Shown one piece after another: positions 4,384 to 20,608 of a stretch of DNA of 64,000 bases. The notes beneath the pieces are model-generated. The model saw only the letters and a program-made list of their open reading frames with translations. It was not told the origin of the DNA and did no database searches. How positions within the stretch are numbered: the first letter of the stretch is position 1; the number at the start of each line of letters is the position of its first letter. The stretch is from assembly GCA_023375675.1 (NCBI GenBank), contig JALQBC010000001.1:62001-126000 (forward strand), written 5' to 3'. The stretch is from Cytospora piceicola (lineage: Eukaryota; Ascomycota; Sordariomycetes; Diaporthales; Cytosporaceae). Both the position numbers and the translations under genes were made by a program.

Positions 4384-5105
4384 CTTGTAAGCCGGGTTAG
4401 GGTTGGGTAGTTTTCCACAACAGACTAAGACTTATTCATATAAGACTTGAACATCTTTCAGCGATGGATTCAGAGTTAGTCAGACAGAACACAACTTTTC
4501 AAGCTATTGGGATCATACAGAACCCTCCCCACTGCTGTCAAGTGTATGAGCAAGAATGGAATGGGCAGCCTTAAGGCCCTCATCAGTAGATTTATTACTA
4601 CTCGGGCCCTTCAGGCAGCAAGATAGTCCAGAACTGACGTATATTAAGATTATTTCTATTTATTTTCATACATATATGTTGAACAGGGCCCGGGCGTGAT
4701 CTCTCAACGTACATATGTAATGAAACAGCAAGAGGTTATGGACTCGGGTTTTTGAACCTTGCAGACCTTCTTATAGGTATTTACTAGTAAGAAAGAGGTA
4801 CAGTATGTGGTTGGAACAAATGGCTCGTCTGTAAAGAACCAATATGCAAACCTTTGTATATTGAACAGATGAAGTCGAAATAGACTACACCTGTGAGACG
4901 CCACTCCCGAAGTCCGTGCACTCTCTAATTCCAGTGCTGCGCCACAAGCGCCACAGATGAGCCCACTTCCAGGAGTAAACGTTCCGGCGCCGGCTAACTT
5001 TGAAGGCCGAAACAACGTCACTTGGACTCCTTATCAATTAAATCCTCTCCATTTTGTCCCGGCCTAACTCCATTCTCTCAACTATGGCAGCGCAACAACT
5101 ATACG
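4384..5105. other. Intergenic region upstream of the het-C gene
   Basis: Base composition returns sharply to normal, with CpA and TpG common again, right after the transposon end. I see no supported gene. The 105-codon minus-strand frame at 4704-5021 has no recognisable features. Confidence 0.6.
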
Positions 5106-7183
5106 ATGTCCCATACGAATTTCCTTCTCATCCTCTTGCTCATCTGCCTGCTGCTGTTCGCTAGCCCAGTGTCAGCATTCGGCGCAGGCGAGGTGCCCGC
5201 AGGTAGCGAGTTCAAGGGTTTTGTGTGGCGTCATGGCGACCTTGCCGAGGTCCTTAAATATCTTCCCAGTAGCTTCATCACCGGCTACAGATTCACGAAA
5301 CTGCAGCGGAAACAGATCTACTTCGGCAACTGGCTGCGCGACTTCTCTCAGGTCATCGATACAACATGTCTCGAAAATGTGCCTGAGCCTATCCTGCGCG
5401 CCATCGTGTCAGTGATGGCCTTCATGGAGTTTGGTTTCGCTACAGACGAATTTGACGTCACAAGGGACCGACTTGGGTGCTACACTCATGTCGAGCACAT
5501 TGACAATCCAAGAGGATATCCCGATAATGCCAAGGAGGTCGACGCGCGGCTGCGAGGTCCGGTCGACCCGAGGGAGCTGCACATTGACCCCGACACCGGT
5601 TTGAAGAATTACATCGCCAACACTGGGCAAGGCTGGGGGACCGCCTCAGACTACCTACGCAACCAGCTCTTGTTGTGCATCGACTTTGGGCGCAAGGGCC
5701 GCCTCAAGCATGGAACCACTGCGAGGAAAGAGGCATTTCATCGTCTCGGAGCAGCTTTACACACGCTTGAAGATTTTTCTGCGCACAGCAATTTCGTCGA
5801 GTTGTGTTTGCATGAACTCGGAGAAAGAGGTGTGTTCGCATTTGTCGGTGACAAATGCCAGGTCGAAATCCCTAACGGGAATGGGAAGGGCAGAAAAGTT
5901 GCGCCCATTGTCACGGGCACCTTTGGCATGTTGGACATTTTCCATTCATTGCTCGGTGAAGCGGATGATAAGGCGGTCCTGCAATCCAAGGGCACTCTCG
6001 GCGAACTCGAAAGCGTAAGTCTCAAGTCAAATTGCGCCGGTCCCGGAACTGACCTAAAGAAAAAAAACAGAAGCTTAACTATGGCAGTGTGGCGTTCGAG
6101 CAATTGTTCCAGCTGATCAAGGCTGGCGTTGAGCAACTGAGCAAGATCCATGCCGATGTTGATCCTATCCTGAGACAACTACAAACTGTTGGGGACATCT
6201 TCAAGAAGTATGCCCCGAGTGACAATGAAAGCACCAAGTCTGAAGGTGTGACCGATGCCAACATGTTGTGGCAGACTATTGAGCCGGTCATCTACCTCCA
6301 CGATATTGTGTCCAAGTATCTACAAGAGGACCAAGAAGATGCAGAAGAGTCGACCCAAGACTATACCCATGGACAGCTCGGGGAGTACACCAACCAGCTC
6401 GTCTTCAAGTATCTAGCCGTCATGATTGAATCTTCCGTGAAGGAGTTGCGGAACGCGGTAAAGGCCGCCAAGGAGAAAGTTGACGAGGAAGCCGCCAAGT
6501 CAATCTCTGCCGAGATCTTCCCAGAAGGCTCCTCGGCGTCCGACCCGAGCCATTCCGATCTGTCCAAGGACCACTTCACCAACGTCCTCAACCAACCCGC
6601 CGGTCTCGTCGGAACCATCACAACCAACTGGACCACACAGCAAGTTGTCAAGTGTTGGGATGACCCGGATATTGACGCAGAGCTCGTCGTTGATAAAATA
6701 CTTACGGTCTTGCATCACCCGGCCTTCCCAGACAGCAAGACGCCCATCCAGCAGTATATGTTCGACACCGTCAAGGCCTGGTGGGAAGCCCACCCGCCCG
6801 AGGAGAAAGAACGACTCCGCTCCAAACTTACCAAGGAGAGCGTGCAACAGCGGAACCATGAAGACCACACCTTGACGGCGAAAGACTTTCAAGGGAAACA
6901 CAATGGTCCCGCTACTTTCCCCGGCGCATGGCCCAAGGTCCAACAACCTCCAAAGAAGGCCTCCCTCCTCAAAGAAGGCATGAACGACGCCATTGCGGAT
7001 TTCAACTGGGCCTTACGAATCGTGCAAAAGGCACGGATCGATCCCAAAGGTGCGGTCAAAGACGTGCGGAATGCGTCGGGATATCTTATTCACAATGTCA
7101 TACTTCTGTGGGTTGCGGTGATTTATCGCATTGCATGCGCTGTCATGTGGTTTGTTTCGAGGCTCTTGTGGCCATTTCGATGA
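5106..7183 (+). CDS. het-c: HET-C family heterokaryon incompatibility protein
   Basis: Two exons, 5106-6014 and 6071-7183, encode 673 residues. The intron is 56 bp (GTAAGT donor, ctgac branch, cag acceptor), phase 0. I chose the ATG at 5106 because it starts directly with a signal peptide (a run of leucine/isoleucine ending SPVSAFGAG); an upstream in-frame ATG at 5022 would only add polar residues. The N-terminal half matches the Neurospora HET-C family (Pfam Het-C): FVWRHGD, IYFGNWLRDFSQ, the conserved LHTLEDFSAHSNFVEL block near residues 217-235 and GTFGMLDIFHSL. A hydrophobic segment lies close to the C terminus. HET-C homologues are secretory-pathway or plasma-membrane proteins, and allelic differences trigger vegetative incompatibility in Neurospora. 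It lacks the long glycine-rich tail of N. crassa HET-C. Whether this copy controls incompatibility cannot be read from one allele. Confidence 0.93.
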
Positions 7184-9398: not shown

Positions 9399-9505
9399 CC
9401 TCGATTTCCCTGTCTTTGCTCTTGACCCATTATCACCGCCTCTCATCACTCTATCCTCACCCTCATCATTTTATTCTTTCCTATCTTCTTGACAAAGCAT
9501 ACAAC

Positions 9506-10554
9506 ATGAAGCACCTTCTTACCCTTCTCGCCACTGTCACGGCCGCTCTAGCGACCGGCCGGACCTCTGCCCCTGCTGGGTGCATCACGGTCGGCTCGGG
9601 AGGCAGCTACAGCACGATCCAGTCCGCTGTGAACTCGCTTTCAACCACATCTTCGACAGCGCAATGCATCTTCATCAAGCCCGGAAAGTACTCCGAGCAA
9701 GTTACAGTATCCTCCCGCGCTGCTCAGTTGACCATATACGGGTACACGAGCGACATCTCCACCTATTCCTCCAATCAAGTCACCATCACTGGGTCGCTAA
9801 GCCAGGCCGACGGGCTGAACAACGATGGGACAGCTACTCTGCGGGTCAAGGCCGCCAATTTCAAGATGTACAACGTCAACGTGGCAAACACATACGGCCA
9901 GGGCAGCCAGGCCGTCGCGCTCTCTGCCTTTGCGGACTCGGGTTACTATGCTTGCGCCTTCACGGGGTATCAGGATACGTTGCTGGCACAGATGGGCTAC
10001 CAGCTGTACGCAGGGTGCATGATCGAGGGTGCTACGGATTTCGTATTCGGTCAAAATGCGGCGGCGTGGTTTGAAGACTGTGATATAAGAGTTCTGTCGG
10101 CCAGTGTGGGTTATGTCACAGGTAAGACTCCCTGCAGTGATACTCCCATTAGATGTTCATGGAAGGCTAATGATTACTGTCAAAACCAGCCAATGGCCGC
10201 GCATCCTCAGACGGCTCATCCTACTACGTATTCAACAATTGCAACATCGCGGCCGCGAGCGGTAACACTGTCACCAATGGCGCGTACTACCTCGGAAGGC
10301 CGTGGGGAGCATACGCCCGCGTCGCTTTCCAGAAGACCTCCATGAGTTCAGTCATAAACAGCGCAGGATGGCACATCTGGGCCAACGGTGACGAACGGAC
10401 AACCAATGCCGTCTTTGGTGAGTATCAGAACAGTGGCGCAGGGGCTTCTGGCAGCCGCTCCTTTGAAACTGTCCTGAGCTCTCCCGTCAGTATCTCGACA
10501 ATTCTGGGCAGCAGCTATGCCAGTGAGGGCTTCTACGATTCTTCTTACATGTAA
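9506..10554 (+). CDS. Secreted pectin methylesterase (carbohydrate esterase family 8)
   Basis: Exons 9506-10121 and 10190-10554 encode 326 residues. The 68-bp intron has donor GTAAGA, branch gctaatg and acceptor CAG, phase 1. The ATG at 9506 opens a typical signal peptide (MKHLLTLLATVTAALA), so the enzyme should be secreted. Family landmarks follow in order: GSGGSYSTIQSAV near the mature N terminus, YQDTLL (Gln156, Asp157), GATDFVFG with the catalytic Asp near 178, and LGRPWG with the substrate-binding Arg near 242 just after the intron. These enzymes hydrolyse methyl esters of polygalacturonan, opening plant pectin to lyases and polygalacturonases. The length is normal and all key residues are present, so it looks functional. 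No other pectinolytic gene is nearby; the neighbours are unrelated. Confidence 0.96.
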
Positions 10555-11329: not shown

Positions 11330-12896
11330 ATGAACTGCGCATTCCGTCGCGTCCCTTGCCAATTGGCCTGGCTGTCCCGGCCTATATCGCCTACAGTTTC
11401 GTCCTCAGTTACAGGCTCAATACGCTGGAGACACAGAACAGTACCAAGTCTCCCATTTACGGCCGGGACTGCCCGGACATTCAATAGTTCTCCATTGATA
11501 CGCCAGGAAAGTGCCGATGCGAAGGCCCGAAAGTTGAACCAGAAGGGCCTGGACGAGGAAGAGCAGGAGGTCAGGGTGAAGCAGAAGCAGGTCAAGAGGC
11601 CATGGCTTCGCGAAGATGCAGACAAACCTCCTGCAGAGCAAGGACCGACGACAAGCGGACGAACCAAAGGCAAGTCGCCTGGCAGAAGATGACCCTGCTA
11701 TGCACACCTCTGGCTAACTAGCACCTTCGGACACAGGAAAACTCCTAACGACGCCGACACGACTTCTAAAACTGATTCTCCCCCTTCCGATCCGCGTTGA
11801 GAAGGACAAGGACAACAACGACACGAGCACAGGAGACTACGGTCGAGCAAGATCAGTCAACGATACCATCCAGCCCCTCGCGCTTCTCGTTCACCCTCAA
11901 CAACCCTTATCCTACGTCGAGCGTCTCATCCAAGCCGAACTACCACCCGTGGTCGAAGAAGGGAAGGAAAAGATACCCAATATTTACTTCCGCGCCGAAG
12001 ACTCTGCCGCGTCTGCTAATCGGCCTACCACCCGCGGCGAAGCCCGCGCCGCGGACAAGAAAGAGGCACAGTCTGCCGAAAAGAACCCCCATGTCGCCAG
12101 TTACTCCGGCCTCGGCCACGAGGCCAAAGAGGACAAAGAGGAAACCAAGTCCTGGGTACGGTGGAGCAGCTCAACCGAGATGGGCGACTTCATCAGGGAC
12201 GCTGCTAGGGGCAGGGAATTTGCCATTGAAGTCGAGGGTTATAACTTTGAGATGCGTGTCTCTGTGCCGAGTTTCAATGACCGGACGTACTACATGCGAA
12301 TGCGGCTCCGCCGCATGTCCCGGCAGATTGATGAACTTGCGACCATCAAGAAGGGGTGCGATGAGCTGGCGTACAAATCTGCACACCGGCTTGCCCAGGG
12401 CGGATTTGGCCTCATGGCAGGCTGGTGGGGGGTTGTGTACTATGTCACTTTCCAGACGGACATGGGTTGGGACCTGGTTGAGCCTGTGACGTACCTGGTC
12501 GGGTTGACGACCATCATGGGAGGTTATCTCTGGTTCCTGTATATCAGCCGCGACCTTTCGTACAAGGCGGCGATGAATGTCACTGTGAGCAGGAGGCAGA
12601 ATGCGCTGTATGAGGGCAAAGGCTTCGACATGCACCGCTGGGAGCAGGTTGTGCAGGAGGCAAATGCCCTGCGCAGTGAGATCAAGACCATTGCTGGAGA
12701 ATACGACGTAGACTGGGATGAGATGAAGGATTTAGCGTACTCCAAACAAGTGAAGAAGGCGCTGGAGAACGAGAGGAATAAGCGGGGATCTGTTCATGAT
12801 GAAGAGGAGGATGAGGTGGAGGCTATGGAAGAGGAGAAGAGGGTGAAGGATGAGATGGTCCAACGGGACCAGGGCGTCAAGAAGGAGGAAAAGTAA
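11330..12896 (+). CDS. MCU: Mitochondrial calcium uniporter (MCU) pore subunit
   Basis: Exons 11330-11669 and 11737-12896 encode 499 residues. The N terminus is arginine- and serine-rich without acidic residues ([22 protein letters not shown]), a mitochondrial presequence. After a variable acidic/basic linker come the domain ([27 protein letters not shown]) and coiled-coil segments around two membrane spans. The short inter-span motif WDLVEP (near residues 358-363) keeps the Asp and Glu of the selectivity filter. The tail is charged and glutamate-rich. MCU carries calcium uptake across the inner membrane, and fungal MCUs act as homo-oligomers. The 67-bp intron best fits a GC-AG pair (GCAAGT donor, ggctaac branch, ACAG acceptor). 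A weak in-frame GT donor three bases downstream is the alternative and would add one residue. Confidence 0.93.
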
Positions 12897-13073: not shown

Positions 13074-13104
<31 letters not shown>

Positions 13105-13137: not shown

Positions 13138-13142
13138 AAAAA
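13138..13142 (-). terminator. Probable RNA polymerase III terminator of tRNA-Pro
   Basis: TTTTT on the minus strand, 15 nt after the tRNA 3' end at 13158, followed by further T4 runs. Confidence 0.55.
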
Positions 13143-13181
13143 GAAACAGTGTCAAGTGGGCCTGACCGGGGATTGAACCCG

Positions 13182-13240
13182 CTATAGTTTAGTTAGAATT
13201 ATGTGCATTATTCACATTCGAACTCAAGACTAATACTTAC
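13182..13240 (-). other. Spliceosomal-type GT-AG intron inside the tRNA T stem (59 nt)
   Basis: On the minus strand it begins GTAAGTATT, has TTCTAACTAAAC as a branch-point region about a dozen nt from the end, and ends CTATAG. This is the full consensus and size of spliceosomal introns in the protein genes of this window (51-87 bp in most). The flanking tRNA bases are GGTCC (13245-13241) and CGGG (13181-13178). Joining them restores a perfect T stem. The insert also holds GTTCGAAT, a B-box-like sequence. Confidence 0.8.
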
Positions 13241-13252
13241 GGACCTCGCACA

Positions 13253-13287
13253 ATAGCAACAGTTGCCTGTTGTCGAGAATATAAAAA
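13253..13287 (-). other. Canonical anticodon-loop tRNA intron (35 nt)
   Basis: Inserted between tRNA positions 37 (G, 13288) and 38 (T, 13252), the standard site for tRNA-splicing endonuclease. It contains a perfect 6-bp hairpin, CAACAG-GCAA-CTGTTG. Confidence 0.85.
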
Positions 13288-13323
13288 CCCGAAGCACGAA
13301 TCATACCGCTAGACCATCAGGCC

Positions 13324-18168: not shown

Positions 18169-20608
18169 TATCTTGACGGAGAGATTCAGGACTAAGCCTT
18201 TGATAAACGCCGGGATAGCTAGTTTGATATTCAGATTGAATTAGCCGAATAGTGTAGAACGTCGTTATATTAAGCAAGATATAGAGGTATTAAGGCATAC
18301 CATAGGCTTAAGCTAATGAGAAATCCAACTTGACCAGCGGTAGGCACTTGACAGCTTGAACTATATTTACTTTTTCTAGTTAAGCAGGAACAAAAAGCTA
18401 GTGGCTTGTTCTAGGGAGGGAAGGAAGAGAGGAAGAAGGCATGGAAAGAACTAACTAAGAATTATCGTAAGGTATAGGTTCCCCGGGTGTCTTTAGGGTT
18501 GGAAGTGGAACGACGGCCTTTGAGCAATATGAAATAGTATCCAAGTACACTTGTGTGTAGTTGACTGAACGTAAAATATTACTTTCTGCGATATTGTGAG
18601 TGGAAGGCTTAGGACTGTATGTAGTAGCAAGAGCTGCTAGCTTTTCCCAGCTAATCGCGATGTTTTCAAGCTCCGTTAGTCACTCAAGTCTCGTCACCAC
18701 TGCATACCTAAGTAAGTTCCATGGTTTTGGCTGGAAACGTGAATTGAAGGATCCTTTAAAGCCTGAATAAGGTCCCACCGTATTCCCTATGTTACGCCAG
18801 CAAGAGCCTATAAGAGCTTGAAAATCATTTTAATTGAGAGCAGCTGGAGGAGTGAGGGGGAAAACGCAAAGCTAAAGGGTACCACGACGGGTTGATGTGA
18901 ATCGAAGCGTGCCCAGGTGGGGACATTTGGAGTGCCGCACGAACTCCTGTGCTGGTACAGTTGCGAACTCTCGATATAATCATTATTTTTATGTGTATTA
19001 CCTACCCTAGGGTAGGTATGGGGAAACCGGCAAACAGATATGTGATAAATACTCAGTTTTCCGATATGGAAACATTGAATGGGACTGTTCAAAGTTTCGT
19101 GAGAGGACTACAGGGACTTTGAATAAAATATTCACAAGTGGTAGTATCGTTAATTAAGTATGTTGCATGTGTCAACGTTATGTGCTTGTACAGTACCTAA
19201 TATTTCCCATCTTCCAACAATCAATGAAAAAAAAGCTCACAACAGGGGCTCCGGGCTGAGTAGAGTTTCTCGAGCTCTTTGTTCAGGGCGCTATACCAAG
19301 AGTAAAAATAATACACAACATTTGAACATACAACACCGGGTATTCGCTGGTCGTCACCGACCCAACTACTAATCCAGCCGTCAGTGGCTTGTCTCGGGCA
19401 GAGCGGACGGGGTGCCGAATTTTCCACTGCGTATGGTCGTATGTGCTTGTGCATAACTTGGTGGAGACTATATAGCAAGCAAGTGCCTTAGGTAGGTAGT
19501 ATTGAGGAAATCCTCCAGAGATCAAACACAAAGATCGAAAAGGCTCCAACGGTTAGCGGGTTCCGGGACCGTTGATTCGACAGAATTTAGGAGGAAACAT
19601 CAATAACGTTGAGCATATGCTATCAAGGCTCCGACTGCCCACACCTCCTAATCATGCCCATCCTCGGCAACGACCTGGAAGATGTTCCCTTCATTGTTTC
19701 CGGCTCTTGGACATGCGTACACCGGCCTAAGTCTCGGTGCTGTCTATGGTCGAGACAAGAGATAGCGGATGATTAACGGAGGATCCCCGAAGCAGATCTC
19801 TATTGTGGGGCCAGCTGCACGCATTCCCGGTATTCACGGCGAGGCAAGAAGCCAATACGGTGTAATACAATTGCGATCAGCTCAGCATTGGCGGGAAGAT
19901 TACAAGGGAGAGCCCTGGAGACGGGACGCTGCTGACAATTGGGGACAGCCTGGTTGGGGAACAAGCTTGGGCTGTGTCGGGGAGTCCCAGTTGATTTAGG
20001 AGCTGAAGAAGGGTTAGACATGGCCTAATGGCCGCAATAACCCGTGACGACCCCGCTAAACAAGCTTTCCAGCGTCTAAAAGAAACGGAGAGGGACGGCA
20101 AACACGGTTTCAGCCCGGCTTCTCGTTATTGGTGTGTGACACGACCCCTCATCTCATCGCATAACCCCTCATCAGTCATCACAGTCGGCTCCTTTTCCTG
20201 CTCTGCATTCACTGCTCAACCCCTCAATGAGCCTTCCGAGGTTTGGGTTATCAGATTGATACGGTACTCTACTTAGGTATGTATGTGCATGAAGTAATTT
20301 CTACATAAGCATATGAGCAAATCCCGTCGTCTCCCTTCCATCCGTACTACTATCACAACCATCTTTTCCATCCGTCTTGATCGCTTTTCTCAAGCTCAGT
20401 GCAGCTCACCCTTCAAGTCAGCATACCAAAATTTGCTCCCAGAGTCAGACACGGCCGCCCAAAGGGTACAAGCACCACGCACCCCCAGATTCAACACTGA
20501 CCTGATTGCTGTTGATCTCATCACCTTGTCCTCGTACTGCCACTCGGACCAGACGGATATAGAAGAGAAGAAAAAATTGAAGCCAGAACAACTCGGACAA
20601 GGGTCGCC
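18169..20608. other. Intergenic region
   Basis: About 2.4 kb without a convincing gene. A palindrome ctaccctagggtagg lies at about 19002-19016. A 38-codon frame from 19653 and the frames at 20028-20276 and 20313-20612 show no family features. The last few hundred bases are a pyrimidine-rich promoter and leader for the acyltransferase gene. Confidence 0.5.

Follow-up and report, generated by a model that had tools for sequence, protein, structure and literature searches.

Introns of nuclear tRNA genes are mostly taken to lie between positions 37 and 38 and to be removed by the tRNA endonuclease only. Non-canonical tRNA introns of archaea depend on a BHB-dependent endonuclease and are not known to have GT-AG ends or a branch site. 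Fungal nuclear rDNA carries spliceosomal introns, an example of mRNA-type introns in non-coding RNA made by a polymerase other than Pol II; these sit in Pol I rRNA, whereas the inserts described here sit in tRNA. Non-canonical archaeal tRNA introns occur at many positions, for example 45/46 and 53/54, and in nucleomorphs and in Cyanidioschyzon merolae tRNA genes have introns outside 37/38 as well, including in the T arm, with several per gene (PMC4090602, in excerpt). The archaeal introns share with the tRNA-Pro inserts a placement outside 37/38. The introns of Guillardia theta measure 3-24 nt and those of C. merolae are BHB-linked, whereas the present inserts are 59 nt long, have spliceosomal signals and lack a BHB. 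For fission yeast, titles cited in PMC10484740 report that U6 is spliced poorly when pre-mRNA splicing is mutated and that the introns contain a match to the B box. As in the tRNA-Pro genes, an mRNA-type intron interrupts a Pol III transcript. U6, however, is a part of the spliceosome with its intron near catalytic nucleotides, while the host here is tRNA-Pro; unlike U6, the tRNA-Pro genes add a tRNA-type intron and a B box of their own in the exon. A literature search of titles and opening abstracts, covering few subscription papers, returned no report of spliceosomal introns in tRNA genes among the matches listed.

The window, i.e. the whole 64,000-nt stretch analysed, corresponds to C1:62001-126000 of a 43.6-Mb genome in 99 contigs. 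At window positions 13323-13158 the minus strand encodes a tRNA-Pro(CGG) whose exons of 36, 12 and 24 nt are separated by two interruptions. The initial annotation had described these as a standard intron after position 37 and a 59-nt insert in the T stem (13240-13182, GTAAGT...CTAAC...TAG). Its coordinates proved exact, and the standard intron was confirmed as 35 nt at 13287-13253. The features are as follows:

13288-13323, minus strand: 5' exon, 36 nt, with the 5' strand of the acceptor stem, the D arm and the anticodon region TTCGGG
about 13306-13316, minus strand: A-box region, within the 5' exon
13253-13287, minus strand: standard tRNA intron of 35 nt between positions 37 and 38, starting with a run of five T
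13241-13252, minus strand: middle exon, 12 nt, with position 38, the 3' strand of the anticodon stem (GTGCG), the variable loop (AGGTC) and the first base of the T stem
13182-13240, minus strand: spliceosomal-type insert, 59 nt, dividing the T stem between its first and second bases
13235-13240, minus strand: predicted 5' splice site, GTAAGT
13216-13223, minus strand: candidate B-box core in the insert, GTTCGAAT (GTTCRANY in all six inserts)
13192-13196, minus strand: branch-site motif CTAAC, with the putative branch A at 13193, 11 nt from the last G of the insert
13182-13184, minus strand: predicted 3' splice site, TAG
13158-13181, minus strand: 3' exon, 24 nt, with the remaining T arm, the 3' strand of the acceptor stem and discriminator C
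13169-13179, minus strand: intact exon B box, within the 3' exon
13138-13142, minus strand: run of five T, a possible Pol III terminator (the other five genes have longer runs of T6-T7)

Removing both introns left a 72-nt product with 20 of 20 cloverleaf pairs, in agreement with the proposal that loss of the insert completes the T arm. Note that the anticodon stem contains two G-U pairs and is paired, not perfect. Discriminator C is also found in yeast tRNA-Pro. ARAGORN read the doubly spliced form as tRNA-Pro(cgg) and made the same call once the insert was removed. With the insert retained it reported no tRNA in the window precursor, and a scan of the 64-kb window (bacterial settings) gave no tRNA either. 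Comparing the gene with and without the insert in a tRNA finder, as the initial annotation had suggested, thus distinguished the two forms. When all 59-nt deletions were tried on the window gene with the 37/38 intron out, only the GT..AG-bounded one gave 20/20 pairs. The next best reached 19/20, so a single base pair, together with the splice dinucleotides, is what fixes the exact insert boundary.

A single odd copy would have weakened this reading, yet the window gene is not unique. A DNA search with a 181-nt window query found three tRNA-Pro places, two besides the window gene, and the pattern AGGTCC-GT...AG-CGGGTTC matched six loci over the genome (reversed control pattern, 0). Searching for the A box with at most one mismatch gave 10 places, all tRNA-Pro. 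A 3'-half search with at most two mismatches gave 23 places, among them the insert-free genes on C9, C20 and C32 again, 14 other tRNAs and six without an ARAGORN tRNA. The insert is present in 6 of the 10 tRNA-Pro genes found (AGG 4/5, CGG 2/3, TGG 0/2); Pro genes of more divergent sequence could have escaped these searches. The genes are:

CGG with insert: C1:75166 (the window gene) and C90
AGG with insert: C1:939720, C1:940001, C7 and C36
AGG without insert: C20
CGG without insert: C1:2122561
TGG without insert: C9 and C32

The insert-free CGG gene has a quite different sequence, with acceptor GGGCAAT and a 28-nt intron (ARAGORN). An anticodon stem of CGYGC/GYGCG together with AGGTCC was seen only in the insert-bearing genes among the Pro genes found. 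The flanks of the insert loci are unrelated, except for the two C1 neighbours, whose flanks overlap. ARAGORN found none of the six precursors and typed all six as tRNA-Pro once both introns were out; AGG_C36 was called tRNA-Phe when it had lost the insert alone, and Pro when it had lost both. Such genes can therefore escape standard tRNA finders, a warning to annotators. The A-box region is free of mismatches in all six, and each has the exon B box, GGTTCAATCC. A putative terminator of T5-T7 follows within about 35 nt in 6/6, the window gene having only T5.

An Rfam tRNA search, in which 63 of 1659 candidates were scored, provided stretches for ARAGORN that yielded 57 typed genes, none of them Pro, one tRNA without an amino acid and one stretch without an ARAGORN tRNA. 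At a relaxed threshold Rfam found both TGG genes but also overlooked two genes that have no insert (those on C20 and C1), so that its failure to report the insert genes says little. A B-box census of the genome counted 432 places versus 349 in the control. Three alike AT-rich sequences with B-box-like motifs, L130 (C62), L131 (C86) and L133 (C99), were rejected as tRNA by ARAGORN and by Rfam at the gathering threshold, and look like decayed tRNA or SINE-like repeats. Another sequence, L115 (C2:185655, minus strand), looks like a tRNA-Asp relic without the anticodon-loop intron region and lies near an intact tRNA-Asp.

All six inserts are exactly 59 nt long and occupy the same T-stem position. 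Their 5' splice sites read GTAAGT in three, GTGAGT in two and GTACGT in one. CTAAC stands at insert position 45 in 6/6, the distance from the branch A to the last G is 11 nt in 6/6, and the 3' ends are CAG in five and TAG in the window copy. As a yardstick from the same genome we took five actin introns, verified by the 375-aa protein that their removal leaves (4 differences from the typed yardstick). These start GTAAGT, GTAAGA, GTAAGT, GTAAAT and GTAAGT. CTAAC is present in four and CTAAT in one, and the branch-to-end distance is 11-13 nt in four and 20 nt in one. Thus, the resemblance to host protein-gene introns described in the initial annotation holds against actin (GTAAGT 3/5, CTAAC 4/5). 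Five further introns, taken from actin-related genes and delimited by eye, have 5' sites that fit less closely (GTCAGC, GTGCGT, GTATGT, GTATGA, GTAAGC), with a CTRAY motif in four and none in one. Actin intron lengths were 62-167 nt, and the shortest of the 10 actin-family introns measured 56 nt. With GT-AG ends, a host-like 5' splice site and a host-like branch motif, the inserts have the predicted hallmarks of U2-type introns. We also considered whether the absence of TTT from the inserts reflects adaptation to Pol III and rejected this, as 7 of 10 protein introns likewise lack a run of more than two T.

A rival reading takes the insert for a non-canonical tRNA intron of archaeal type that the tRNA splicing endonuclease removes. 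Such introns are described in nucleomorphs and Cyanidioschyzon, in the T arm as well (PMC4090602, in excerpt). However, the BHB helix is absent from the T-stem junction. Its 4-bp helix formed 0/4 pairs in five inserts and 2/4 in the window copy, and with shifted bulges at best 3/4 (window) and 2/4 (others). The 37/38 introns, by contrast, have an anticodon-intron pair of 5-6 bp in all five tested of the six, and so fit tRNA endonuclease introns; in the window copy CTCGA of the intron can pair with TCGGG of the exon, giving 5 bp. An endonuclease origin would also leave the GT..CTAAC..AG signals without explanation, and we regard it as highly improbable. The missing BHB and the spliceosomal signals together point to two machines acting on one transcript.

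We next compared the exons with the inserts. In the CGG pair the exons differ at 0/72 positions and the inserts at 18/59 (Fisher p = 1.1e-7), with 5/35 differences in the 37/38 introns. This is unlike the neutral divergence that the initial annotation had named as evidence against its reading. The four AGG genes have identical exons and inserts that differ at 3-7 positions, and the 37/38 introns of AGG_C7 and AGG_C1b are identical. Between the CGG and AGG classes the exons differ at 8/72 and the inserts at 23-34/59, without gaps. At splice-signal positions, which were picked after the alignment was seen, 0/11 changed in the CGG pair versus 18/48 others (p = 0.011), 0/11 versus 25/48 between CGG_C90 and AGG_C1b (p = 0.001), and 0/11 versus 6/48 for AGG_C1a against AGG_C36, which does not reach significance (p = 0.27). 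The idea that conserved splice signals should accompany a real intron is thus borne out in 6/6 copies despite inserts differing at up to 34/59, a comparison that spans paralogues of one genome. The inserts are related by descent, so the six copies do not count as independent cases.

For cloverleaf covariation we used five distinct mature sequences (two from insert genes, three insert-free) representing nine Pro genes, the divergent C1:2122561 being excluded. All 100 of 100 cells were paired and seven pairs had changed on both sides, a number reached by 0/500 shuffles. The acceptor stem of the CGG insert class equals that of the insert-free TGG_C9, and that of the AGG insert class equals the insert-free AGG_C20, so the compensatory changes may predate the insert or have come by exchange.

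These data bear on whether the six genes are dead or dying, with an inert insert and all tRNA-Pro supplied by insert-free genes. CGG, AGG and TGG genes without insert do exist, and the window copy combines a T5 run in the 37/38 intron with a terminator that is itself no longer than T5. Yet a dying family would hardly have identical exons within each anticodon class while the inserts differ at up to 18/59, nor all cloverleaf cells paired, the splice signals kept and T5-T7 downstream in 6/6. The decayed-looking tRNA-like copies (L115, L130, L131, L133) are also quite different. We therefore consider gene death improbable. Gene conversion could keep the exons alike, but it must then spare the inserts lying between them. 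Exon identity next to diverged inserts argues, as far as sequence comparison goes, for working tRNAs that lose the insert.

The presence of related inserts at six loci whose flanks are for the most part unrelated might alternatively suggest a mobile or SINE-like element, or an Introner, that landed in tRNA genes by chance. The search for insert copies (word-based, skipping common words) spoke against this, since an AGG-type query returned only the four AGG genes and the 181-nt window query only the three tRNA-Pro places. In a test for an Introner, i.e. near-identical intron copies in many genes, the word-based genome search found no copy outside tRNA-Pro. Moreover, the position is always identical and by eye there is no target duplication at the junction, making chance insertion of an element scarcely credible. 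A search for relatives gave 0 matches in viral_contigs and one in genome_contigs, by eye a chance match (Planctomycetales contig).

As a possible origin, we tested derivation of the insert from the gene's own T arm by local alignment of four inserts with the AGG mature exon. This was rejected, with 85, 171, 103 and 213 of 500 shuffles scoring as high. Against U6 intron 2 the outcome was mixed (3, 93, 84 and 7 of 500), against U6 intron 1 109-451 of 500 shuffles scored as high, and against an actin intron 179-500. The alignments are at most suggestive of kinship with U6 intron 2.

To find other tRNAs with a CTAAC intron close before the B box, we searched the genome and obtained 15 places versus 13 in the reversed control. 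Six were the known genes and two were plain tRNAs (Val, Thr). The remaining seven gave no ARAGORN tRNA, whether left intact or with any GT..AG segment of 35-109 nt taken out. Note that this deletion test recovered tRNA-Pro from two insert genes, and that random deletions also produced stray Arg, Val and SeC calls.

A B-box core, GTTCRANY, is contained in 6/6 inserts, with a chance expectation of about 0.014 per 59 nt in this window. These cores are candidates, as the consensus G before and C after the core are missing in 6/6. The initial annotation had drawn a parallel with spliceosomal introns in the U6 of some yeasts, and a counterpart turned up in this genome. Two U6 genes score above the Rfam cut-off, a continuous one at C63:24720-24818 and an interrupted one at C68:682185-682353 (minus strand). 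The latter has two GT-AG inserts, and after their removal it aligns with the C63 copy. Insert 1 (GTAAGT..TACTAAT..AAG) follows GGCATTT, and insert 2 (GTAGGT..CTGAC..CAG) lies between GAGAAGAT and TAGCATGG. Like the six tRNA inserts with their GTTCRANY, U6 insert 2 contains such a core, GTTCAAGT. That each tRNA-Pro insert gene has two B-box cores might mean that the insert is retained in RNA and that the transcripts have a role outside translation, the genes serving, for example, as TFIIIC landing sites. We give this next to no weight, as it leaves the kept splice signals, the anticodons and the T-stem and acceptor pairs unexplained.

For the window insert, the placement is exact, the splice signals are conserved, the cloverleaf is restored on removal and the exons are constrained. 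From these features we conclude, with a probability of roughly 0.85, that the insert is a genuine spliceosomal intron of the U2 type, lying in a nuclear tRNA-Pro gene that Pol III transcribes and that belongs to a family of six. The spliceosomal interpretation of the initial annotation is thereby strengthened through the paralogues, the kept signals and the U6 parallel, all evidence at the DNA level. Pol III would make a pre-tRNA holding two introns. The nuclear spliceosome would take out the T-stem intron first, and the tRNA endonuclease and ligase would then handle the 37/38 intron. Export factors and the endonuclease need a folded T arm or read the folded tRNA body, and we propose this order because of that requirement. 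The intronic B-box core may be a promoter element, as has been reported of fission yeast U6, or a trace of origin. The wider proposition, a class of nuclear tRNA that needs both spliceosome and tRNA endonuclease and has a Pol III B box within a spliceosomal intron, seems to us somewhat favoured.

In the window copy the 37/38 intron starts with a T5 run as long as the gene's own terminator; C90 has T4 there. Such a run may end Pol III transcription prematurely, which could make the window copy the weakest member of the family.

If the spliceosomal reading is true, the spliceosome would be required by four of the five AGG genes found, the main Pro decoder by gene number, and by two of the three CGG genes, and proline tRNA supply would be tied to splicing capacity. 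As insert-free CGG (C1:2122561) and AGG (C20) genes exist, this dependence would be partial, with other sources possible. A spliceosomal T-arm intron carried by the majority of the AGG and CGG tRNA-Pro genes found in a genome would represent a novel manner of splitting a tRNA gene. It would show the spliceosome serving a tRNA besides U6 among Pol III transcripts, and would let the dependence of splicing on Pol II be tested in a natural setting.

Other non-coding RNA genes were noted in passing. SRP RNA has one full-length match in the genome, and a 5S rRNA gene in the window (19325-19444, minus strand), 6 kb away from the tRNA, is matched over its full length and has no large insert. Downstream of the tRNA gene, at a distance of ~53 nt, the minus strand has 29 consecutive T (13076-13104). 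Protein homologues in the window include Het-C over two reading frames (5022-7183), a pectinesterase piece (9416-10345) and a mitochondrial calcium uniporter (11949-12896), whose reading frame ends ~260 nt from the tRNA 3' end. Protein similarity points to a filamentous ascomycete, probably of the Diaporthales, the order of Cytospora: for an F-box-like protein encoded in the window, Cytospora mali gives the best match with a name (66% identity), and Cytospora chrysosperma reaches 68% across 85% of the length.
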